From: Candidatus Dormiibacterota bacterium
GTDB lineage: Bacteria > Chloroflexota > Dormibacteria > Dormibacterales > Dormibacteraceae
Reading direction: 5' to 3'
DNA: 40,793 bases
NCBI GenBank assembly: GCA_003151935.1
Contig: PLYZ01000007.1
Coordinates: 50,599-91,391, forward strand
Positions 4,198 to 40,793 of this stretch are shown in pieces. Position 1 is the first letter of the stretch; the number at the start of each line of letters is the position of its first letter. The notes beneath the pieces are model-generated. The model saw only the letters and a program-made list of their open reading frames with translations. It was not told the origin of the DNA and made no database searches. Both the position numbers and the translations under genes were made by a program.

Positions 4198-5440
4198 GCC
4201 CTACCTCCCTCTCGATACCCGTGGCGGACCGGAAAACGCGATTTTCCCACACGCCCAGGAAGAATATGCCAATCGCCGCGAGCGTCCAGATGTTCGGGAA
4301 GATGAGATCGCACGGGGCTCGGTAGAAGCCGAGCAGCAGGACGGCCAGCACGGCGAGAGAGCCGTATCTCCGCCGTTCGATTCCGCGCACGGCCAGCAAG
4401 AGCACCAGCGGCAGCAGCGGCAGCCACTGGTACGGCCAGACCTCGTTGGGTATGAGGGCGCCGAGGGCGAACCCGAGCGACATTCCGTAGACCGGGTTCC
4501 ATCGGCTGCGCCATGCGGCCCACACGGCCGCCGTGGCGAACGCGAGGGCGCTCAGGTAGGACAGGGCGAGCGCGACCTCAGGTAGATGGATTGGTGAGCT
4601 GACGAGCATGTAGCCGGAGCTCGTTGGTTGCGCGTATTGCTCCCCGCCGATCGTGCGCGTGAAAAGTGTACGGACCGAGTCGTAAGCGCAATCGGGGTTG
4701 TGCGATCCCAGCGACGGGAGCAGGACGTGCTGGAAGTAGAAGACAGCGCCGCCAAATCCGAGCGGGATGAAGCTGGCGACGGTGACGATCACCAGCACGG
4801 CGCCAAGCGCGACCGCGTATCGAATGCGATGCGCGGGCCGCGTACCGATCACCATCGCGGCCGGGTAGTACTTGAGCGCCGCGACCAGGCCGCCTGCCAC
4901 TCCCGCAAGCGCTGGGCGGTTCGCCTCGAGCCCGATCGAGGCGATCGCACCCAGCAGGAGGATGCCTCCGCGCTGCCCCGCAACGACATCGGAGAAGAGC
5001 GGCGGGAAGTAGGCGGCGACCAACCAGAAAATCGGGCGCGCCAGCGGATGCCGGCCGGCCACCAACCGGTAGAGCAAGAAGAGCGCGATCAACAGGGCCG
5101 CCGAGTCGATGCCGGTCCAAACCTGGACGGCGACGCTCTTGGGCAGCAGCGCGATAGGCGCTGCCAGCGCCGCCAGCGGAGGCGGGCTCACGAACTCGTC
5201 CAGGCCGCCGGGCGGCGCGATGATGTGAAAGCGCGCGATGTAATTGGCAGCCGCGTCGTACATGTGAGACGGGTCGGTCAGATACGCATGTGCGCCCTCC
5301 CACATGCCCTCAGCGTCGTAGCGACGAGGGGTGAGCACTGTGAGGATCGCCACTCGAAGCCAGAAGGCGGCGGCGATCGCCCAGTAAAGGGCCGGCCGCG
5401 AAAGCACATCGGCGGCCGCGCGGCGCAGGCCCCTGGTCAA
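4181..5440 (-). CDS. GT87-like (DUF2029) multi-pass membrane protein, probable mannosyltransferase
   Basis: About 419 residues with some ten hydrophobic segments spread over its whole length, starting with one at about 18-38. An early loop has charged residues (RRYDAEGMWEGAHAYL) and a later VSPPPLAAL motif resembling the GT-C fold of GT87 polyprenyl-phosphate-mannose-dependent transferases. Function is inferred from this pattern only. The start is uncertain: the longest frame begins with TTG at 5438-5440, which lies inside a 32-bp tandem repeat; a GTG at 5405-5407 is an alternative. It follows the LysR gene by 60 nt on the same strand and overlaps the downstream hydrolase by 17 nt. Confidence 0.65.
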   Translation of the reverse strand: MTRGLRRAAADVLSRPALYWAIAAAFWLRVAILTVLTPRRYDAEGMWEGAHAYLTDPSHMYDAAANYIARFHIIAPPGGLDEFVSPPPLAALAAPIALLPKSVAVQVWTGIDSAALLIALFLLYRLVAGRHPLARPIFWLVAAYFPPLFSDVVAGQRGGILLLGAIASIGLEANRPALAGVAGGLVAALKYYPAAMVIGTRPAHRIRYAVALGAVLVIVTVASFIPLGFGGAVFYFQHVLLPSLGSHNPDCAYDSVRTLFTRTIGGEQYAQPTSSGYMLVSSPIHLPEVALALSYLSALAFATAAVWAAWRSRWNPVYGMSLGFALGALIPNEVWPYQWLPLLPLVLLLAVRGIERRRYGSLAVLAVLLLGFYRAPCDLIFPNIWTLAAIGIFFLGVWENRVFRSATGIEREVGHGAER

Positions 5441-5508
5441 TCGGCCGCCGCGCGGCCCTGGCGCGCGGTCAATCGGCCGCCGCGCGGCCCTGGCGCGCGG
5501 TCAATCGG
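5435..5508. repeat. 32-bp tandem repeat, two full copies plus a 10-bp partial third
   Basis: Unit at 5435-5466 is repeated exactly at 5467-5498, and a third copy starts at 5499 but diverges after GGTCAATCGG. The unit is GC-rich with internal palindromes. Each unit contains, on the minus strand, GATTGACC. In the third copy the TGA of this string is the LysR stop codon (5501-5503); in the first copy the TTG is the proposed start of the downstream membrane-protein gene. Confidence 0.95.
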
Positions 5509-31420: not shown

Positions 31421-32224
31421 CTAGCTGATGCCGGCGAACAGATCGTCTTCGGGTAACGAAGAACCCGGCTTTCCACGAGCCAGCTGGAAGTATTCGGTGC
31501 CGAACGCGAGCTCGTAGATCTGGCTCGCCATGGTCGCGAACCACGAGTTGGGGTCGTTCTGGCTCACGTGTGCGCCGAAAGCCTTGCGCTTCTGGTCGAC
31601 GTAGTCGTGGACGTCGACGCGGGTCGTCACCAGCTCATCGGGCGTACCGGCGATGCGCATATTCGTGTTCTGGCGCTGAGCCTCTTCCGGCATCTGCGCC
31701 ATAAACGCTTCCATCATCGATCGCGGAATCGCGGTGTAGTAGACCTTTTTGGGCGACCAGCCTTCGCGCTGGAGCAAATCCAGCGCCGCGTTCGTGACGT
31801 GGTGCGCCTTGACGTGGTCCGGGTGTCCGTACACGCCGTCTTCGGCATACGTCACGACCACGTCCGGCCTCTCGTCGCGCATGAGGACCGCTAGCTTGGC
31901 GGCCGCTTCGTCAAGCCGCGCCTGGTGGAACGAGCGCGGGTCCTTGTTGTCAGCCGTGTCGACCATCCCTGAGTCGCGGTAGCCCAGAAACTCGATCCGG
32001 TCGACCCCGAGCGTCTCGCCCGCTGCCTTCAACTCTTCGGTCCGGATCTCGCCGAGCCGCGGACGCGATGACTCCTCGTCCATGTTGTGGATCTCGCCGA
32101 CCTCCCCCCGCGTCGCGGTGGCAAGGACCACGCGATGGCCATGGGCTTTCGCCTTCATCATCACGCCGCCGGTCGAGATGGACTCGTCGTCGGGATGCGC
32201 ATGGACCAGGAGGAGGGTTCCCAT
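31421..32224 (-). CDS. LmbE/PIG-L family zinc deacetylase (Mca/MshB-like)
   Basis: 267 residues. Zinc-dependent deacetylase or amidase acting on N-acylated glucosamine groups. AHPDDE (9-14) with zinc ligands H10 and D13, and the third ligand H137 in GHPDH, are intact. The C-terminal part (RVDVHDYVDQKRKAFGAHVSQND) resembles mycothiol S-conjugate amidase more than plain PIG-L proteins; the rest of mycothiol synthesis is not in the window, so this is tentative. ATG at 32222-32224 shares its A with the stop of the HAD gene (TGATG). An open frame to 32353 is an upstream extension over the HAD gene. Confidence 0.9.
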   Translation of the reverse strand: MGTLLLVHAHPDDESISTGGVMMKAKAHGHRVVLATATRGEVGEIHNMDEESSRPRLGEIRTEELKAAGETLGVDRIEFLGYRDSGMVDTADNKDPRSFHQARLDEAAAKLAVLMRDERPDVVVTYAEDGVYGHPDHVKAHHVTNAALDLLQREGWSPKKVYYTAIPRSMMEAFMAQMPEEAQRQNTNMRIAGTPDELVTTRVDVHDYVDQKRKAFGAHVSQNDPNSWFATMASQIYELAFGTEYFQLARGKPGSSLPEDDLFAGIS

Positions 32225-33033
32225 CAGTGCGCTCCAATCAACATGTCGGCGAGCTGCTTGATTCCCCCGTGGCCGGGTCCGGGGATGGTTCGATCGGCCG
32301 CGCCGACCACCTCGGGCGGTGAGCCTTCGACCGCAACACCCAGTCCGGCCCACTCGATCATCGATGCGTCGTTACGCCCGTCTCCCACCGCCACACACTG
32401 ATCTTGCGGGATGTTGAGCCTGTCGCACAGGAAGGCGAGAGCGGATGCCTTGTCGCTCTCGACGCTGGTGAACTCGAGATAGGTCGGCACCGAGGTCGCC
32501 ACATTGAGGCGGCCCTCCCACCGCTTCCGAACCTCGGGGAGGAGCTCCTCCAAGGTCGACGCGGTCGAAACGATGACGAGCTTTGGCGTCGTCGGCCCCA
32601 TCGCCCCATCGAGGTCACCGACTACGTTGATCTCCATGCCGGCGTGGTTCGCATACTCATGGGCCTCCGGCCTGTCCCGCTCGACGATCAGCTTGTCGTC
32701 TCGGTACGCCTGGACATGCAGGTCCCGCTCGCGCGCGAAGCGGATCACCTCCATTGCAAGGTCGTGCTTCACGCCGCGGTCGAGGACCTTCGTGCCGTCC
32801 GGCAGGCGAATCTCAGCGCCCTGGTAGCAGATGATCGGCCCGTCGAGGCCGAGGCGCTCGGCCCACGGCTGGGCGCCCGGAAACGGGCGGCCGGTGCAGG
32901 CGACGACCGTGACGCCGGCGAAGACGATCTGGCCAAGTGCCTCGACGTCGCGCGGGTCCAGGTTCAATTTCAGGTCCAGGATCGTGCCGTCAAGGTCGAG
33001 GGCCACCAGGCGGTAACGCAAGCCTAGAGGCAC
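32224..33033 (-). CDS. Cof-type HAD-superfamily phosphatase
   Basis: 269 residues from the GTG at 33031-33033. Nucleophile and acid D13/D15 in VALDLDGTILD, motif II CTGRP, and motif IV GDGRNDASMIEWAG are present, with a large C2b-type cap domain between. Hydrolyses a small phosphorylated metabolite, often a sugar phosphate. The frame remains open to 33111 through the 49-bp repeat; a TTG at 33019-33021 is another possible start. It lies 175 bp after the hydroxyacid dehydrogenase gene, so it may have its own promoter. Translationally coupled to the LmbE-like gene. Confidence 0.9.
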   Translation of the reverse strand: MPLGLRYRLVALDLDGTILDLKLNLDPRDVEALGQIVFAGVTVVACTGRPFPGAQPWAERLGLDGPIICYQGAEIRLPDGTKVLDRGVKHDLAMEVIRFARERDLHVQAYRDDKLIVERDRPEAHEYANHAGMEINVVGDLDGAMGPTTPKLVIVSTASTLEELLPEVRKRWEGRLNVATSVPTYLEFTSVESDKASALAFLCDRLNIPQDQCVAVGDGRNDASMIEWAGLGVAVEGSPPEVVGAADRTIPGPGHGGIKQLADMLIGAH

Positions 33034-33091
33034 GGCGCGGAGCTTCGGCGAGAGCTGCGGTGCCCAGATGGTCCAGATGCTGGGCGCGGCC

Positions 33092-33140
33092 GAGCATCGG
33101 AGCGAGCGCATCCGTCGATGCGGGAGCGAGGAGCGCAGGC
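33092..33140 (+). repeat. 49-bp dispersed repeat, copy A
   Basis: Matches copy B (40446-40494, other strand) without gaps at 43 of 49 positions by hand count. It contains CGCATC-CGTC-GATGCG, a 6-bp stem with a 4-base loop, flanked on both sides by GAGCGA-like purine blocks. It lies in the 175-bp spacer before the HAD gene. Confidence 0.8.
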
Positions 33141-33208
33141 CGCAACAACGCAGATGGGCCGCATGGGCGCCGCAGATCCGTCGAAGATTCCGTGCCGGGC
33201 CTCTTGGG

Positions 33209-34192
33209 CTATCTCTTGACCTCTGGGTTGAGGAGGTTCGGCGGGCGACCGCCTCGAACCGCCGTCGCCATGTTGCGCGCCGCCATCGCCGACATCTCCG
33301 ATCGGGTACTGACGGTGGCGCTTGCGATGTGCGGGGCCAGCACGACGTTCGGCATCGGTATGAGCCCTGGGTGAACGGCCGGCTCGCGCTCGTACACGTC
33401 GAGCCCCGCTCCGGCGATCTTCTTGGCGTTCAGCGCCTCGACCAGGGCCGCCTCGTCGACCACCGGCCCGCGCGAGGTGTTGATGAGGATCGCGGTTCTC
33501 TTCATCTGCCCGAACTGCGGCGTGCTGAGCAGGTGGTGCGTCTCTTGCGTCAACGGCACGTGCACGGACACGAAGTCGGACTCGGCGAGCAGCCTTCCCA
33601 TGTCGACGCGCGCTGCGCCAAGCTCCTGCTCGGCGTCCGGTGGCAGCGGATGCGGGTCGTAATAAAGGACGCGCATGTTGAACCCCTTGGCTCGATGAGC
33701 GACGCCGCGACCGATCCGGCCGACGCCGATCAGGCCCAGGGTAGCGCCATGCACGTCGGCGCCCAGCATCATGTCGATCGCCCAGCCTCGGAACTTTCCC
33801 TGGCGAGTGAAGCTGTCGGCCTCGACGATTCGCCGCGCGGTCGCCATGATCAGGGTGAAGGCGAAATCGGCAGTCGCGTCGTCGAGCACGCCGGGAGTGT
33901 TGGTCACCATCACCTTGTGCGACGTGGCGGCCGGGACGTCGATGTTGTCGAACCCGACCGCCACGTTGCTGACGATCTTCAGACCGGGCGTGGAGAGGAC
34001 GGTCTCGCGAATCGGGTCCATCAGCTGGCTCACGATGCCGATACACCCTTCGGCGGCGCGCCGGATGCTCGCCTCGTCCAGCGGCTGGTTGACGGGGTAG
34101 GCGACCACCTCGGCGGCCTCGGCCAGGATCGCCGGACCCGGGTCGAGGATCGGGTGCATCAGCAGGATCCGAGGTCGCCCGCCCGTGCTCAT
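33209..34192 (-). CDS. D-isomer 2-hydroxyacid dehydrogenase (glyoxylate reductase-like)
   Basis: 327 residues. NAD(P)H-dependent reduction of a 2-keto acid. The nucleotide loop GVGRIG is at 156-161; the catalytic trio is R241 (NTSRG), E270 (DVYEREP) and H288 (APHIASAT). The length and SNVAVGFDNIDVPAA favour the glyoxylate/hydroxypyruvate reductase branch over PGDH, which would carry a C-terminal ACT domain. ATG at 34190-34192 overlaps the HD gene stop as ATGA. Confidence 0.91.
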   Translation of the reverse strand: MSTGGRPRILLMHPILDPGPAILAEAAEVVAYPVNQPLDEASIRRAAEGCIGIVSQLMDPIRETVLSTPGLKIVSNVAVGFDNIDVPAATSHKVMVTNTPGVLDDATADFAFTLIMATARRIVEADSFTRQGKFRGWAIDMMLGADVHGATLGLIGVGRIGRGVAHRAKGFNMRVLYYDPHPLPPDAEQELGAARVDMGRLLAESDFVSVHVPLTQETHHLLSTPQFGQMKRTAILINTSRGPVVDEAALVEALNAKKIAGAGLDVYEREPAVHPGLIPMPNVVLAPHIASATVSTRSEMSAMAARNMATAVRGGRPPNLLNPEVKR

Positions 34193-34755
34193 GGATTCAG
34201 TCCCAGCTCCTGTGCGATCGGCTTCAGGGCATCGCGGACGAACTCCACGTGCTCGTCGAAGGGTATACCGAGCGCCTCTGCGCCGGCGACGAGCTCCTCA
34301 CGATGCACGCCGCGTGCAAACGCCTTGTCCTTCATCTTCTTACGCACGGTGCTCGGCTCGACCGCGCTCAACGACTTGTCGGGCTTGACCAGGGCGCAGG
34401 CGATGATGAAGCCGCACATCTCGTCCACGGCGTTGAGCGCCTTGCGGATGTTCGAGTTGCGCGGGACGTCCAGGTAATCGGCGTGCGAGGCGATGTCATC
34501 GAGGATGTCCTCAGGCCAGCCTCGCTCGCGCAGCATCTGTATCCCGCGCATTGGATGGAGGTCGAGCGTCGGGCCTGACTCATAGTCCCAATCGTGGATG
34601 AGGCCCAGCACCGCCCAGCGCTCCTCGTCTTCGCCAAAGCGTCGCGCATAAGCGCGCATCGCTGCTTCGACGCTTCGCATGTGACGGCGCAGCTGGTCCG
34701 ATTTCGTCATCGATGCAACGAGCTCCCAGGCTTCGTCTCGGGTCGGCGTGGTCAA
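34189..34755 (-). CDS. HD-domain hydrolase
   Basis: 188 residues. HD signature: H25 (RRHMRSVE), H54-D55 (LIHDWDYE) and a later Asp near the KALNAVDEMCG segment, giving a metal-dependent phosphohydrolase fold of the HDIG kind. Substrate unknown. The start is a TTG at 34753-34755 overlapping the hisC stop (TTGA), and its stop overlaps the next ATG (ATGA), so it is coupled on both sides. Confidence 0.86.
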   Translation of the reverse strand: MTTPTRDEAWELVASMTKSDQLRRHMRSVEAAMRAYARRFGEDEERWAVLGLIHDWDYESGPTLDLHPMRGIQMLRERGWPEDILDDIASHADYLDVPRNSNIRKALNAVDEMCGFIIACALVKPDKSLSAVEPSTVRKKMKDKAFARGVHREELVAGAEALGIPFDEHVEFVRDALKPIAQELGLNP

Positions 34756-35807
34756 ATCAGGATCTCCTTCAGGGCTGACAGGAGGCGCTCGTGCTGGACG
34801 CGTGTGCCGACCGTGATCCGGAACCAGCCGGCGATCGGGTCACGATCGTAATAGCGGACGAGGATCCGCCGCTGGCGCAATGCGTCGACGACGGCGGCCC
34901 CAACATTGCCCATCGTCGGCTTGACGAAGACGAAGTTGGCCTCCGACGGCGAGTGCTCAAAGCCAAGCTCGTGCAACTGGAGCTCCAACCAGCGGCGCTC
35001 CCCGACCACGTGGTCGACGATCTTGCGGTGATGCTCCTCATCCTGGATGGCGGCGGTCGCCGCCACGATGGCGAGCCGGTCCAGGTTGTAGGAATCCTTG
35101 ACCGCATCGAGTGCCGCGATGAGCTCTGGGCTCCCCAGCGCGAAGCCGATCCGCATGCCGGCCAGGGCGTAGGACTTGGACATCGTGCGCAGGATCAAGA
35201 GGTTGTCGTGCTTCGCCAGCAGCGCGACCTGCGACTCGAAAGCGAAATCGACGTATGCCTCGTCCAGCACGACGACGCCCTTCGATCGCTTCACGACACG
35301 CTCGACTGACGGGCCGCCATGCCAGGTTCCGGTCGGCGAGTTGGGGTTCACCAGGAACTTCAGCGGCGCCGGGTCGTCCATGAGCTCGGGGGACCAGGTG
35401 AACAGCTCGCCGCTAGGGTTCGGCGAGGGGACGGCATCGTGAAGGCGGCACAGAGGCTCCAGCAGTGGATAGGTGGGCGTGGGATAGGCGACGCGGTCTC
35501 CGGCGCCGGCGAAAGCGCGCAGGCACATCTCGATCAGCTCGTCCGCGCCGTTTCCAAGCGTGACCTGCATTGGAGCGAGGCCGAAGTGCTTTGCGATGGC
35601 CTGCCTCGCCGGAGCAGCGGTCGGACTGGGATACAGGCGTAGTGACTCGTCGGTCGCGGCCTTGATGGCTTCGATCACCCTTGGGGAGGGCGGAAGCGGC
35701 GACTCGTTCGTGTTGAGCTTGATCCAGTCCTCGCCATCCGCCGGCTGCTCGCCGGGGACATAAGGCTCGACGCCCTGGAGGCTCTTTCTCAGGAAGCTTT
35801 TCGACAT
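34752..35807 (-). CDS. hisC: Histidinol-phosphate aminotransferase
   Basis: 351 residues. PLP enzyme of histidine synthesis; some also act on aromatic amino acids. The PLP lysine is K211 in RTMSKSYALAGMRIG; further family marks are KLNTNESPLPPSP, LGNGADELI, NPNSPTG and LDEAYVDFA. ATG at 35805-35807 lies 19 nt inside holB. No other his genes are near, so it sits in a mixed run rather than a his operon. Confidence 0.93.
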   Translation of the reverse strand: MSKSFLRKSLQGVEPYVPGEQPADGEDWIKLNTNESPLPPSPRVIEAIKAATDESLRLYPSPTAAPARQAIAKHFGLAPMQVTLGNGADELIEMCLRAFAGAGDRVAYPTPTYPLLEPLCRLHDAVPSPNPSGELFTWSPELMDDPAPLKFLVNPNSPTGTWHGGPSVERVVKRSKGVVVLDEAYVDFAFESQVALLAKHDNLLILRTMSKSYALAGMRIGFALGSPELIAALDAVKDSYNLDRLAIVAATAAIQDEEHHRKIVDHVVGERRWLELQLHELGFEHSPSEANFVFVKPTMGNVGAAVVDALRQRRILVRYYDRDPIAGWFRITVGTRVQHERLLSALKEILI

Positions 35808-36739
35808 TCGAGCAAGAAAGTCTCGAGCGCGAGGCGTGGGCTGACGTTCTGCTCGAGGTAGCCAAGCGTGTCGTAGGAGAGCTCGATCAGCCGGGCCCAG
35901 CGTCCCTGCTCGCGGCCCCGGCTCGCCAGCATCCTCTTGCGCAGCTCGATCTGCCAGGTGGCGATCGCGAAAAGGGCCGGATCCTCCGCCTCACCCTCGG
36001 TCCGCCGCCACGCCATCTGCCCGGCGTCCAGCTCGGCCGCAACCCGCAGCGGCACGTCCGCGTGGGCGCCGAACACCTCGTCAAGGCGGCGAGTCCACTC
36101 GTGGTGGAGCTCGATCACTCCCTGGTCGCCCGCCACCCGCGCCGCCCAACCGGGACGGCCGCGCGCGAGCTCGGCGATGAGGCGCGCCCGGCCGGACTCG
36201 ACCCCTTGCCCGGCCAGTAGCTTCTCGATCTCGGGCGACGGCACAGGATGAAAGAAGACTCGCTGACAGCGCGACACGACCGTGGGCAGCACCACGAATG
36301 GGTTGAGGCTGGGAGTCGTAAGGACGATGACCCGACGCGGATGGGGTTCTTCGAGTGTCTTGAGCAGCACGCTCTGGTCCTGGTCGCGCAGGCGGCCGAC
36401 GTTGGCGAGCAGCGCCACACGCCGGGTACCCACGGCGGGCTTGAGATTCAAGAATGCCTGCAGCGACAGCTCGTGAAACTCGGGCGGCTTCTCGGGCAGC
36501 AGACGGATCTCGTTGATCGAGAGCGGCTTGATCCGGTCGTCCTCCCAGTAGTCGGGATGACGGGCAAGCGGCGCTTCCGGAAGCAGGGCCGCCGCGAGGA
36601 GTCGCGCGACGGTGGCCTTGCCGAGGCCGGCCTCACCGACGAACAGGTAGGCGTGGGCGAGGCGGCCGCTCTCGACCTGCGACCGCAGCTGTTCCAATGC
36701 CTGAGGCTGCCCCGCGACGATCGAGAATGGATCGGTCAC
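35789..36739 (-). CDS. holB: DNA polymerase III delta-prime subunit
   Basis: 316 residues. Clamp-loader AAA+ subunit. The P-loop-like GEAGLGKAT (35-43), the LLKTLEEP segment and the SRC motif (156-158) with its arginine finger are present. The zinc-binding cysteines usually found after the P-loop are absent: that stretch is cut short to PEAPLARHPDYWEDD. GTG at 36737-36739 overlaps the stop of the PIP synthase gene (GTGA); the open frame upstream of that is antisense-like readthrough and was not used. Confidence 0.91.
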   Translation of the reverse strand: MTDPFSIVAGQPQALEQLRSQVESGRLAHAYLFVGEAGLGKATVARLLAAALLPEAPLARHPDYWEDDRIKPLSINEIRLLPEKPPEFHELSLQAFLNLKPAVGTRRVALLANVGRLRDQDQSVLLKTLEEPHPRRVIVLTTPSLNPFVVLPTVVSRCQRVFFHPVPSPEIEKLLAGQGVESGRARLIAELARGRPGWAARVAGDQGVIELHHEWTRRLDEVFGAHADVPLRVAAELDAGQMAWRRTEGEAEDPALFAIATWQIELRKRMLASRGREQGRWARLIELSYDTLGYLEQNVSPRLALETFLLECRKAS

Positions 36740-37401
36740 GGCGTCTGAGGAGGCGCTGCCCGGCGGGCCTTGGTCTCGCGCTCGATGGCCAGGCGCTGCG
36801 CGCGCCCCTGCAGCCACACCTCGCGGATTCGCTGCAGCGCGGTCAGGTTGGTGAGCACTGCCAGCAGGAAGACGACCGCGTAGAGCACGACTCCGCCCAA
36901 AAATCCAGAAAAGACGAGCCCGATCACCGTCACGACCACGCGCTCTGGCCGTGCGAAAAGCCCCGAGTCGCAGGTAAAACCGAGGCTCTGCGCGCGCGCC
37001 CGCACGTAGCTCACCAAAAACGAGCCGGCAAGCGCGGCAAGCGTCGCCAGTACAAGCCATCGCTCGAGCGGGCCGCCCACGCTGATGAAGTACGCCGTGA
37101 GGCCGGCATAGATCGCGCCTTCCGAGTAGCGGTCGAGGGTCGAGTCGAGAAACGCGCCGTACGGGTAGCTCGCATGGGTCGACCGCGCCAGGGCTCCGTC
37201 GAGGATGTCGCAGGTGCCCGCGAAGATCAGCACGACGCCGGCCCACTGCAGGTGGCCAAAGGCGATCAGCACCGCGGCGACGAACGTAAGCATCAATCCC
37301 ACGATCGTGACCTGGTTCGGCGTCAAGGGCACGCGCCCGACGGCCGACATCAACGCTTCGGCTCTGCGGCGGACCCAGGCTTCAAACCGCGTTGTGAACA
37401 C
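36736..37401 (-). CDS. Phosphatidylinositol phosphate synthase-like CDP-alcohol phosphatidyltransferase
   Basis: 221 residues with about six hydrophobic segments. Joins CDP-diacylglycerol to an alcohol phosphate, here most likely inositol 1-phosphate. The CDP-alcohol motif is complete: D65-I-L-D68-G-A-L-A-R, then G82 and D86, D90. The C-terminal RARAQSLGF and ARPERVVV resemble mycobacterial PIP synthase. An ino1 gene at the right edge and a PimA-like neighbour support the assignment. GTG at 37399-37401, 20 nt inside the glycosyltransferase gene. Confidence 0.92.
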   Translation of the reverse strand: MFTTRFEAWVRRRAEALMSAVGRVPLTPNQVTIVGLMLTFVAAVLIAFGHLQWAGVVLIFAGTCDILDGALARSTHASYPYGAFLDSTLDRYSEGAIYAGLTAYFISVGGPLERWLVLATLAALAGSFLVSYVRARAQSLGFTCDSGLFARPERVVVTVIGLVFSGFLGGVVLYAVVFLLAVLTNLTALQRIREVWLQGRAQRLAIERETKARRAAPPQTP

Positions 37402-38548
37402 GACTCTCCTCAGCACGTCGCGGCGCTTCACGTGCAGCCTCGCGCGCTTCCTCATAGACCTCGATCACCTGAGAGGCGACAGCGTCCCAGTCGTAGCGCC
37501 GGGCCTTCTCGTGCCCATAAGCGCCCATGCGAGCTCTCAGTTCGGCATCCCGGGCCAGGATGATCAAGGCAGCGCCTAGCTCGGCCCATCCCTTGGGTCG
37601 CACGGTAAGGCTGTCACGGCCGGGCTCCAGCACGGACATGTAGCCAGGAACCTCCGTGGCGACCACGGGCAGACCCGAGGCCATCGCCTCCAGGAGCACG
37701 ATGCCGAAGCTCTCCGCGCCGGTGGCCGGAGCGCAGAAGATGTCTGCGCTGTTGTAATAGCGAGGCTTCACCGAGTCGGGGACGTAGCCGGCCAGCACGA
37801 CGTTGGGCAACCGGTGGCGCGAGATGTACGACTCGACCTGGCCTCGAAGCGGTCCGTCGCCGACGATGATCAGGCGGCTGTGCGGAACGCGCTCGCGCAT
37901 GAACTCGTAGCCGCGCAGCAGGTCGCCCAGCCCTTTTCGCTTTTCCAGCCGCCCGACGAAGAGGATGTTGACGTTCTCGTCGCGGAGGTGACGGATGGGT
38001 GAAAGGCCCGGCTTGAACACGTTGAGGTCGATCCCGTTCGGAATGACCCGGAGAGGAAAGTCGGGGAAGTAGCGGTTGAAAAACGTGCGCGCGGGTTCGC
38101 TAACTGCGATGCCGCGATGGATGTGGTCGAGGTATGGATGCAGGATGCCGCGTCCGTAGAAGTACCCGATGTTGGAGTGCGAGAAAGCGTGGAAGGTGCC
38201 TACGTTTGCGGTGGTCGACATCCGCAGCATTGTGAGCGGCAGCGCCGGCATCAGGGGCTCGTGGAAATGCAGGACGTCGAAGTGCTCCTGTTCGATGATC
38301 GCGGCCACTCGGTTGCCAAGGTGGAAGCTGAGCGTGATCCGCGCCACCGAGTCGTTGGCCGGCACTGCGATGGGGCTGCCGATGCGATAGAACTCGCGCG
38401 TGTCGAAGTCGATGTCGGCTCGGCTGGACGGGGCGAAGATGCGCACCTGCTGGCCGTGATTCCGGAGCCGCCCGGCCAGGTACCTGACGTGGTCGGTCAC
38501 CCCGCCCGGCGAAGCGAAGTCGTAGGGGGAGACGAGCCCGACTTTCAT
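37382..38548 (-). CDS. PimA-like GT4 glycosyltransferase
   Basis: 388 residues, GT-B fold. Probably transfers mannose from GDP-mannose to phosphatidylinositol at the inner face of the membrane. GGV at 15-17, H120 (TFHAF, equal to the PimA catalytic His), IPNGID, and the E-x7-E motif E279/E287 in GAESFGIVLLEAM are present. N-terminal VGLVSPYDFASPGGV closely follows PimA. ATG at 38546-38548 with AGGGAG 6 nt upstream. Some actinobacterial-type GT4 enzymes use other lipid acceptors; the neighbours favour PimA. Confidence 0.87.
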   Translation of the reverse strand: MKVGLVSPYDFASPGGVTDHVRYLAGRLRNHGQQVRIFAPSSRADIDFDTREFYRIGSPIAVPANDSVARITLSFHLGNRVAAIIEQEHFDVLHFHEPLMPALPLTMLRMSTTANVGTFHAFSHSNIGYFYGRGILHPYLDHIHRGIAVSEPARTFFNRYFPDFPLRVIPNGIDLNVFKPGLSPIRHLRDENVNILFVGRLEKRKGLGDLLRGYEFMRERVPHSRLIIVGDGPLRGQVESYISRHRLPNVVLAGYVPDSVKPRYYNSADIFCAPATGAESFGIVLLEAMASGLPVVATEVPGYMSVLEPGRDSLTVRPKGWAELGAALIILARDAELRARMGAYGHEKARRYDWDAVASQVIEVYEEAREAAREAPRRAEESRVHNAV

Positions 38549-38554
38549 GAGCTT

Positions 38555-38575
38555 CTCCCTCTCCCCATCGGGGAG
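38555..38575 (-). promoter_or_regulatory. Ribosome site and hairpin before the PimA-like gene
   Basis: Minus strand: hairpin CTCCCC-GAT-GGGGAG (38561-38575), then AGGGAG (38555-38560) 6 nt before the ATG. The string CTCACCCCGGCC further upstream, with CCCCGATGGGG, recalls the REP-like repeats common in many high-GC genomes. Confidence 0.5.
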
Positions 38576-38650
38576 CAATCAGTAAGTCCCATCCTCATCG
38601 CCGCTTTGCGCGTAGGGCCGGGGTGAGAGGCTTAAACAGCAATGAGCGCG

Positions 38651-39523
38651 TCAAGGAGAGTTGGCCCAGATTGCGTGTGGAACATGCCATTGCTCGGGAT
38701 GGCGCCGGATGAAGTTCTCGAGCTGGCGCAGCACCTGCTCGGTGGCCCGGATCTGGTCCCCCCGAGGATCGCCGGTGTCCTTGGCGAAGACCAGCGGCGC
38801 GCCCTCGGCCTGGTAGGTGTCGTCCGGCAGCCGGTAGACGCACACAGGAAAGATCGGAGTCCCTGTACGCAACGCGATGGCGGCCGGCCCAAGCGGAATC
38901 GGCGCGAGCCGGCCGAAGAATGGCATCGGATGACCGGTGCCGACGATGTCGCGGTCGATTGCCGTGACCACCATCTCCTCGTCGCGCAGGGCCTGGAGGA
39001 CCCTGCGAAGACCCCCGGTGTCCAGCGTCAGGACGCTGATCCCGAGCCGGGCCCGGGTGTCGCGGTACCACTCGAACAGGGCTCGGGGTTCCAGCTCCTC
39101 CGCGAAGAGGCTGACCGGCGTGAGAGTCGCCGACCAGATCGCCGATACCACTTCGTACGAACCCATGTGGCATGAGACCACGAGCACTCCTTTGCCGATC
39201 GCGCGGGCCTGCTCGAGATACTCCATGCCCTGCACCTTCAGCCACGGCCGCATCGTCTCGACAGAGGTCCTCGGCAGCATCATCAGGTCGGCGTAAGCCT
39301 TGGCGTGGTTCCGAAAGTTGAGCCACGAGAGACGGCGCAGCTCGCGCGGGTCCGTCTCCAGCTCCGGGCAGGCGATCTTCAAGTTGTACTCCAGCCGCGG
39401 CCGCGCCAGCGGCGAGAACCTCCACGCCAATCTGGCCGCCAGCACCGCGAGTGCGTAAGCAAGCGAACGCGGCAGCCGCTCCACCACCGACTGCACGGAC
39501 TTGAACGCGCGGTAGCGCCACAC
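38651..39523 (-). CDS. LPLAT-type acyltransferase (PatA/HtrB family), first copy
   Basis: 290 residues, membrane-associated. Transfers an acyl chain to a glycolipid such as phosphatidylinositol mannoside. The HX4D/E catalytic motif is H119-MGSY-E124 in VVSCHMGSYE; a later FFGRLAPIPLGPAAIALRTG matches the family acceptor region. GTG at 39521-39523 follows directly on the stop of the other acyltransferase gene (TGAGTG). It differs clearly from its neighbour, so the pair is an old duplication or two separate functions. Confidence 0.88.
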   Translation of the reverse strand: MWRYRAFKSVQSVVERLPRSLAYALAVLAARLAWRFSPLARPRLEYNLKIACPELETDPRELRRLSWLNFRNHAKAYADLMMLPRTSVETMRPWLKVQGMEYLEQARAIGKGVLVVSCHMGSYEVVSAIWSATLTPVSLFAEELEPRALFEWYRDTRARLGISVLTLDTGGLRRVLQALRDEEMVVTAIDRDIVGTGHPMPFFGRLAPIPLGPAAIALRTGTPIFPVCVYRLPDDTYQAEGAPLVFAKDTGDPRGDQIRATEQVLRQLENFIRRHPEQWHVPHAIWANSP

Positions 39524-40468
39524 TCACCGCTCGGCCGGTGTGAACATCGGCCGGAACGCGTACCACTGGTCGGGACGCTCTTTGATGAAATCCTCGAAAC
39601 GGCCGACCACCCGCTGCATCAATCCCTCCTTGGTTTCCCCAGCCTCGACCGTGAGCGAAGGGTCCAGGTGGACGTGATGGTGGCCGGGCGAAGTCACGTA
39701 CTGGCACGCTGGTATCAGCGGCGCGCCGGTCTTGAGCGCGATCGCTGCGGGCCCGCCCGGCACGACCGCATTCCTGCCGAAGAATCGAACCCTCACGCCC
39801 GGGCCCTGCTCGAGATCACACAGCAAAGCGACGACGGAATTGGCCTCGAGCGCTCGGATGATCGCACGGACCGCTGAACGCCCCATCGTGATGACGTCGA
39901 GACCGAACCGCTGCCGCGTACGCACCACCGCGTCATTCAGCGATCCCGGAAAGCGCTCCGTCACGGCGGAGACTCGATAACCCAGAGCGCCGGCACACGC
40001 CCCGGCCATATCCCACGAGCCCATGTGGGGCACGGCCATGATCGCCCCGTGCCCCTTGGCAAGCGCGGCATCCACCTGGTCGAGACCGTCGATGGTCACG
40101 CGCTCGAGGAGCTCTTCACGATTGAGGCTGCCCACAAGCAAGAACTCCGTGAGCATCCGGCCGTAGTTCTGAAAAGCCCGGCGCGCGACGCGCCCAACTT
40201 CAGGGTCAGAGCGCTCCCGACCCAGAGCGGCGGCATAGTTGTCGAGCGCGGCGCGGCGCTGGCCCGCGTTGAGCCAGAACCAGGCCGCCCCACCTGGCGC
40301 CGCAGCCGCGTGGCGAAGTCCCGGCGGAACGGCCCGCAGGACTGTCGCACCAACGTGGTAGGAAGCCCCGAGCAGCGCGAAGTCGCGGCCCTGCGGCGAG
40401 CTAGACGGCCGATCGGCGCCCTTCGGGCGCCTAGCCGGCGTCACCGCCTCCGCTGCTCGCTCACGCAT
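39524..40468 (-). CDS. LPLAT-type acyltransferase (PatA/HtrB family), second copy
   Basis: 314 residues as drawn. Catalytic motif H148-MGSW-D153 in AVPHMGSWD; FFGRNAVVPGGPAAIALKTG is the acceptor-side region. The HX4D form is the classical one, whereas the downstream copy has Glu. The proposed ATG (40466-40468) lies inside repeat copy B, so about the first 28 residues may be repeat-derived; GTG at 40442-40444 or a later start is possible. Upstream is ino1. Confidence 0.85.
   Translation of the reverse strand: MRERAAEAVTPARRPKGADRPSSSPQGRDFALLGASYHVGATVLRAVPPGLRHAAAAPGGAAWFWLNAGQRRAALDNYAAALGRERSDPEVGRVARRAFQNYGRMLTEFLLVGSLNREELLERVTIDGLDQVDAALAKGHGAIMAVPHMGSWDMAGACAGALGYRVSAVTERFPGSLNDAVVRTRQRFGLDVITMGRSAVRAIIRALEANSVVALLCDLEQGPGVRVRFFGRNAVVPGGPAAIALKTGAPLIPACQYVTSPGHHHVHLDPSLTVEAGETKEGLMQRVVGRFEDFIKERPDQWYAFRPMFTPAER
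40384..40437. repeat. Left arm of an imperfect inverted repeat around copy B
   Basis: Read on the minus strand, CGGCCGTC-TAG-CTCGCCGCAGG and about 25 following bases match the plus strand from 40511 with roughly three-quarters identity by eye. This arm is inside the N-terminal coding region of the acyltransferase. Confidence 0.55.
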
Positions 40469-40494
40469 CTACGGATGCGCTCGCTGCGCTGCTC
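40446..40494 (-). repeat. 49-bp dispersed repeat, copy B
   Basis: Inverted copy of 33092-33140, 43 of 49 identical. The hairpin CGCATC-CGTA-GATGCG contains the ATG used as the acyltransferase start. Confidence 0.8.
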
Positions 40495-40510
40495 GGCGCT
40501 TCCTTGGCTT

Positions 40511-40560
40511 CGGCCGTCGATCTCGCCGCAGGTCTCGCGCCTCCACGCTGCGCGGGACTA
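40511..40560. repeat. Right arm of an imperfect inverted repeat around copy B
   Basis: Plus strand CGGCCGTC-GAT-CTCGCCGCAGG and onward to CGGGACT; partner of 40384-40437. It ends at the ino1 stop codon. Confidence 0.55.
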
Positions 40561-40793
40561 GCGCCGAGCAGACGAAGTCGCGGTCTTGGTGCGAGCGACG
40601 CGTCGGGATACGCCGCCGTTGGCTCCAGCCTTATCACCTTCGATGAACTCCTCCACCAGGCGCATCGCCTCGTTGTCGCTGTACTGCACAGGCGGTGACT
40701 TCATGAAGTACGAGCTGGGGCCTTCCAGCGCGCCACCGATGCCGCGGTCGAGGGCCAGCTTGACGCACCGGACGGCGTCGATCACGATGCCGG
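40558..40793 (-). CDS. ino1: Inositol-3-phosphate synthase, C-terminal part
   Basis: About 78 codons; the 5' part lies beyond the right edge. Converts glucose 6-phosphate to inositol 3-phosphate with NAD. The visible end, [20 protein letters not shown] then [14 protein letters not shown], is the diagnostic C-terminal region of actinobacterial Ino1. A non-conserved tail of about 20 residues, Arg/Thr/Ser-rich, follows. It is the first seen gene of the phosphatidylinositol cluster. Confidence 0.9.

Follow-up and report, generated by a model that had tools for sequence, protein, structure and literature searches.

Palindromic elements of about 180-190 bp at gene edges in Dormibacterota: a probable family of miniature mobile elements

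Two sites in a 40,793-nucleotide stretch of contig PLYZ01000007.1 from a Candidatus Dormiibacterota bacterium (this whole stretch is the window) carry nearly the same 49 bp in inverted orientation. What is this repeat, and how did it come to lie between genes? An earlier note on this DNA compared it with repetitive extragenic palindromic (REP) elements. Here, we find a hairpin of ~180-190 bp, which the earlier note had missed and of which the 49 bp make up no more than the tip. The hairpins probably form a family of non-autonomous miniature mobile elements in Dormibacterota, landing at gene edges in such a way that the operons survive.

The inverted match itself was reproduced with its coordinates and orientation: positions 33092-33140 align gap-free with the complementary strand of 40446-40494, 43 of 49 bases being identical, and the two copies share the stem CGCATC/GATGCG while the loop differs (CGTC versus CGTA), as previously described. 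When a 23-nt piece was searched with up to three mismatches, these two sites were the only matches in the window, and none occurred in 100 dinucleotide-preserving shuffles. The similarity between the copies extends outside the 49 bp (84 nt at 77%). The surroundings of copy 1 (33020-33220) fold into a single rod over nearly their full length at -131.1 kcal/mol (mean of shuffles, -90.6; z -8.87), and the opposite strand of this region folds at -106.9 kcal/mol. The hairpin fold of copy 2 has a z of -5.52. A covariance model was trained on 41 of the 96 copies extracted; it matched the window at 33044-33186 on the plus strand (149.5 bits) and at 40400-40537 on the minus strand (70.2 bits), while two further matches were weak (E 0.13 and 0.96) and not credible. 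The resulting features are as follows.

33025..33208, plus strand (the better-folding strand): element copy 1, approximate limits
33092..33140, plus strand: 49-bp tip of copy 1
40372..40560, minus strand: element copy 2, approximate limits
40446..40494, minus strand: 49-bp tip of copy 2

Further copies, whose absence the earlier note had named as a reason to give up the repeat, are present throughout the genome. A 15-base core pattern occurs exactly 13 times in the 2.94-Mb genome to which the window belongs (reversed control, 0), and the covariance model gave 29 matches there at E <= 0.01 among 150 scored candidates. Across the class, 68 of 110 genomes contain a match at E <= 0.001; because 29 candidates were scored per genome in this survey, counts near 29 stand for at least that many. 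When each GTDB species was represented by one genome, scanning returned 76 stretches, each titled as a Chloroflexi, Dormiibacterota or Dormibacteraeota metagenome-assembled genome. An exact-pattern search of IMG/VR gave no matches and blastn with one copy gave none in phage and plasmid collections, on which grounds phage or plasmid cargo was rejected. The pattern-based collection, which covered three spellings of the core, yielded 100 distinct copies. By its properties the element belongs to the non-coding ~100-200 bp class with a long stem-loop and several copies, coding having been judged from the open frames seen. In the element-rich genome G046, four cores in the same direction follow one another 256, 128 and 128 bp apart (L094:495-1028), forming a local tandem array, and five other copies (L043, L044, L052, L091 and L115) hold an extra hairpin of ~35 nt (GGGGTCCCTCC...GGGGACCCCAG) inside one arm.

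The fold was analyzed in an alignment of 42 copies, hand-picked from the 96 extracted for one outer-arm type. RNAalifold reduces them to one rod of 59 pairs, 40 of which show changes on both sides. Paired cells amount to 96.2% compared with 80.3% in shuffles, and double-change cells to 363 compared with 97.3; the percentage is favoured, since the structure was derived from the same alignment, whereas the double changes are less exposed to this effect. Shifting the partner columns by 1-3 lowers the pairing to 35-40%. The mismatches at the tip (GAGCGAG opposite GAGCGAG) are conserved.

The two strands are clearly not equivalent. On the strand reading GCATCCGTNGATGC, 191 G.U cells were counted against 21 A.C cells, and the excess persists whether one counts only the pairs that both strands predict (63 versus 20) or the union of the pairs from each strand (192 versus 27). 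The consensus energy is -94.1 kcal/mol on this strand and -60.0 kcal/mol on its complement, 97 of the 100 copies fold better on it, and G.U exceeds A.C in each of the 42 aligned copies. Since G.U so far exceeds A.C, one strand appears to be selected in its folded form. The bias is found in both orientations, with a G.U:A.C ratio of 95:3 in 19 copies whose flanking genes are read from the other strand and 31:10 in 8 copies with genes on the same strand, which suggests that the constraint belongs to the element rather than to the host mRNA. Either RNA or single-stranded DNA could give rise to such a bias. The outermost arm bases differ among copies and still remain complementary, with 9 to 24 double changes per pair in columns 9-14 and 185-190. 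This complementarity is kept in L036 even though one side of its outer arm derives from the target, and at the L036/L083 site two species show a coupled difference (GAGC/GCTC versus GATC/GATC). Either selection on the fold or template-switch correction thus reaches into the flank, and the strand bias argues for selection, at least within the element.

Comparison of orthologous gene junctions revealed filled and empty forms of the same sites. The gene downstream of copy 1 is present in all 42 family genomes. Among the 30 genomes in which the junction was read, the window and G002, which is of the same genus, are filled, 27 lack the core, and in one (L135) the junction was not located by our motif. 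The cleanest insertion is L036, which reads ...CCATGAGCACGC, the element and then CCGTGAGCACGCCC..., while the same gene pair in the window, an HD-domain gene and a 2-hydroxyacid dehydrogenase gene, shares an uninterrupted ATGA overlap (CCATGAGCACGGGC). The target duplication TGAGCACGC of 8-9 bp flanks the element on both sides in L036, and the window has the empty site ATGAGCACG. At the L026 junction, G001 is empty (GTGACGCTGG), G002 retains a stub whose left end carries GTGACGCT, and the element is present in the window's genome and in G008 (L251), the latter judged by eye and not detected by the core pattern. The purS junction is filled in the window's genome, and G002, G008, G020, G005 and G001 lack the core there; the remaining gene pairs compared are likewise filled in some genomes and unfilled in others. 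Stubs consisting of the hairpin foot were seen at a ccmE-like site, at an mraY-like site and at two sites in G002, and the tip is deleted in L244 and in two copies of the window's genome (L241 and L242).

From such comparisons the element is taken to be mobile, and we infer movement by transposition only from the target duplication and the insertion polymorphism. The duplication is clear in L036 and partial at the L026 and L021 sites, and its length is not uniform. Targeting of TA dinucleotides, as in ERIC, was considered and rejected; it fits the TAA/TAG-type sites and fails at L036, whose target ATGAGCACG lacks TA.

Several genes at the empty sites were recognized by eye and are presumably ccmE, mraY, apt, purF, mreC and uvrC. 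When ten N-terminal pieces were searched against Pfam, PurS and an NTP transferase (galU-like) scored above the cut-offs and SecY below its cut-off, with no match for the other seven. Some empty sites have features of their own. At those corresponding to copy 1 (L136-L162), the HAD gene has no ATG, GTG or TTG at its conserved start; its frame opens with an ATA or GTA that shares bases with the preceding TAG stop (ATAG/GTAG), apparently a case of reinitiation or of a conserved start of a non-standard kind. At the purS junction of G001 (L164), ~20 bp of the stop/start junction are tandemly duplicated with no element between. Upstream of the galU-like gene (L257-L263), several genomes, whether their site is filled or empty, share a conserved (T/A)AGATTGTC-like box that precedes the ATG by a few bases and is possibly the promoter of a leaderless transcript.

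The position of the element relative to genes was surveyed with our own crude codon-usage gene caller, which placed 79 of the 100 distinct copies; the others lie near a locus end or in short loci. In total, 67 of the placed copies are intergenic. Relative to the better-folding strand, both neighbours are antisense in 38 of these, both are sense in 15, and 7 each are divergent and convergent. The two-sided binomial p for 38 against 15 is 0.002, an optimistic value because orthologous sites (L003/L056 and L036/L083) are counted twice and the element-rich G046 weighs heavily; the junction counts below share both features. A stop codon lies 76-102 nt from the core, which is the element edge, in 46 of the 67 intergenic copies, with distances peaking at 88-90 and 94; by type, the near stops are TGA (22), TAG (14) and TAA (12). 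Of 96 copies, 14 have a start codon at offset 81 that leads into at least 60 open codons, compared with 0-5 copies for any other single offset between 60 and 109, and 11 of these 14 start codons are preceded by a GAGG-like motif. At some junctions the element appears, from codon positions, to provide the next gene with its start signal, and the foot start codon with its GAGG would be used in translation. In L003, L011, L037 and L056, the frame is open from an ATG at the hairpin tip into the downstream gene (MRSLRCS...), and an element-coded N-terminal peptide is possible in these four.

Both copies in the window lie at such junctions. Copy 1 is situated between the dehydrogenase stop (33209-33211) and the GTG of the HAD gene (33031-33033), and copy 2 between the stop of a synthase-like gene (40558-40560) and an acyltransferase frame, whose sole ATG, GTG or TTG codons upstream of the domain fall inside the element. 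The neighbouring features are listed below.

32224..33033, minus strand: Cof-type HAD hydrolase gene, downstream of copy 1 (PF08282, TIGR00099)
33031..33033, minus strand: probable GTG start of the HAD hydrolase gene within the element foot, in frame with the HAD domain and at offset 81 from the core
33209..34192, minus strand: D-2-hydroxyacid dehydrogenase gene, upstream of copy 1, whose TAG stop (33209-33211) abuts the element (PF02826, PF00389)
34189..34192, minus strand: ATGA stop/start overlap of the HD-domain and dehydrogenase genes, the empty form of the site filled in L036 and L083
39524..40468, minus strand: PIM-type acyltransferase open frame, downstream of copy 2 (PF03279, NF005919)
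40558..40560, minus strand: TAG stop of the inositol-3-phosphate synthase-like gene, at the edge of copy 2

Combined, these data suggest the following course of events. Each copy can fold end to end into one imperfect hairpin and lies at gene edges, chiefly where a stop codon meets or overlaps the next start; in the cleanest insertion 8-9 target bases, the overlap among them, are duplicated. A stop is retained for the upstream gene, and one group of copies would give the downstream gene the foot start codon behind the GAGG motif; with the stop retained and a start supplied, the operon may survive the insertion. The copies would have been made by a transposition enzyme, and the one folded strand would be recognized either by that enzyme or through a function at the RNA level. 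Some observations weigh against this reading. Searches for Y1 and reverse transcriptase identified no mobilising enzyme, DDE families not having been searched one by one; 12 of the 79 placed copies lie within predicted genes according to the crude gene caller; 82 of 96 copies have no start codon at offset 81; and the duplication varies from 8-9 bp in L036 to ~3 bp or none visible at the TAA/TAG-type sites.

Several explanations compete with this reading. The element might be an ordinary double-stranded DNA miniature inverted-repeat transposable element (MITE) of a DDE transposase, whose one-strand fold bias reflects a later role of the transcript. The inverted-repeat ends, the duplication in L036 and the variable short duplications elsewhere agree with this, and we hold it as a tentative possibility. 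However, the G.U bias persists where the operon reads the other strand (95:3), and a search with the arm pattern in the window's genome gave no longer element with a transposase between the arms, although transposase families, DDE included, were not searched one by one. This pattern (<=3 mismatches) matched 42 times, many by chance (reversed control, 15), and led to the tip-deleted copies L241 and L242 rather than to a transposon; L243 is not element-like. A bolder proposal, which we regard as unlikely, is a mobile structured RNA or single-stranded DNA element whose folded plus strand moves by an enzyme that is neither Y1 nor, in the window's genome, reverse transcriptase. Pairing of its terminal bases with each target would bring it to stop/start overlaps and let it restore both codons. 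Mobilisation by reverse transcriptase is conceivable but not supported; a search for PF00078 gave nothing in the window's genome, and of the 22 genomes searched 18 lack it and 4 have a match, 3 of these over the cut-off. We also regard as unlikely that the arms are kept complementary by template-switch correction of imperfect palindromes during replication and not by selection on a folded strand. Complementarity that extends into target-derived flank and the coupled change at L036/L083 would be expected from such correction, and stubs and tip deletions show that the hairpin is unstable. Nevertheless, correction should treat both strands alike, which conflicts with the G.U excess on the union of pairs, and the internal tip mismatches remain conserved.

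Two further explanations carry little weight. A vertically inherited, immobile cis-regulatory RNA, riboswitch-like or acting in intercistronic control, would account for the strong covariation and for the frequent position between co-directional genes, but we consider it very improbable in view of the presence and absence of the element at orthologous junctions with empty sites, the unrelated neighbouring genes, the occurrence in both orientations (38 and 15) and a fold bias that lies opposite to the operon mRNA in most copies. Rfam also gave no match for the window at gathering scores and none for 15 loci at E <= 1, a single further match being at chance level (15.5 bits where 40 is the cut-off), and a riboswitch or other known RNA family was rejected accordingly. 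The least credible is a REP or bacterial interspersed mosaic element family moved as a single-stranded hairpin by a REP-associated tyrosine (Y1) transposase (RAYT). The element is indeed a dispersed, palindromic, mostly extragenic repeat near stop codons with one strand selected as the folded form, and to this extent the REP-type description in the earlier note stands. It fails in the RAYT sense. The associated transposase to be looked for according to that note (Y1, PF01797) was not found in the window's genome nor in 21 of the 22 genomes searched, the sole carrier (G013) having no element match, and the rod of ~180-190 nt is far from the 20-40 bp of REPs. REP/RAYT was rejected on both grounds. 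Furthermore, no invariant GTAG or CGTC tag was found outside the stem at the variable ends of the 42-copy alignment, where CGTC occurs only as a loop.

Among known systems, the closest kind is the ERIC/YPAL-like miniature palindromic elements of bacteria (PMC2229807). ERIC (IRU, RU-1) of enterobacteria is ~127 bp long and A+T-rich with TA termini; like our element it is non-autonomous and intergenic, forms a long stem-loop and has no known transposase, and it is co-transcribed within operons, as our element would be (PMC2229807). Insertions of RU-1 are able to lengthen or replace the ends of genes (PMC2759123). The element differs in its ~180-190 bp, its ~70% G+C, its sequence and taxon and the foot start codon in one copy group. 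YPAL (RU-2) of Yersinia, ~168 bp and not A+T-rich, with target duplications of 3-26 bp, resembles it in size, higher G+C, filled and empty sites between species and the apparently variable length of the duplications (PMC2229807). In contrast, YPAL targets span or adjoin dyad symmetry and those of the element are stop/start overlaps, a comparison made by description and not by sequence. The pneumococcal BOX repeat encodes stop codons of adjoining genes, with 36 of 58 overlapping genes in one genome (PMC3049150), and the edges of the element likewise bear such stops; BOX is modular (boxA, B, C), unlike the element, which is a single rod biased to G.U on one strand and has a fixed place for a start codon. 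REPs, also treated in PMC12306157, are described as 20-40 bp long with a GTAG or CGTC tag at one end (PMC3733652). The element shares with REP/REPIN the extragenic palindromes near gene ends, whereas its CGTC is the hairpin loop of some copies only and no Y1 was found.

Within a literature search that left out most subscription papers, neither this family nor a miniature element that brings a start codon into gene overlaps was found in work on Dormibacterota palindromes or noncoding RNA, or in work on miniature elements in connection with start codons, stop codons or gene overlaps. A word search of a 2024 MITE review (PMC10969869) found no start codon, stop codon or overlap. The family is likely, but not proven, to be new to the literature. 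If the favoured reading of a gene-edge mobile family is true, the element is fitted to the tightest spots of a compact genome and enters the stop/start overlaps of conserved operons with neither gene broken, because the start signal arrives with it. Since it would split two coupled genes in one step, pairs of species with filled and empty sites would serve as natural experiments on the purpose of translational coupling. How palindromic repeats without a known transposase move also becomes a testable question, given the one-strand G.U bias in both orientations.

Two smaller observations concern the window itself. At 40558-40641, the inositol-3-phosphate synthase-like frame continues for 27 codons past the end of its family profile until it meets the TAG bordering copy 2, so its C-terminus may have been altered by the element or by the insertion event. 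Away from both copies, at 5408-5503, a 32-bp unit occurs in three tandem copies, two of which are identical.

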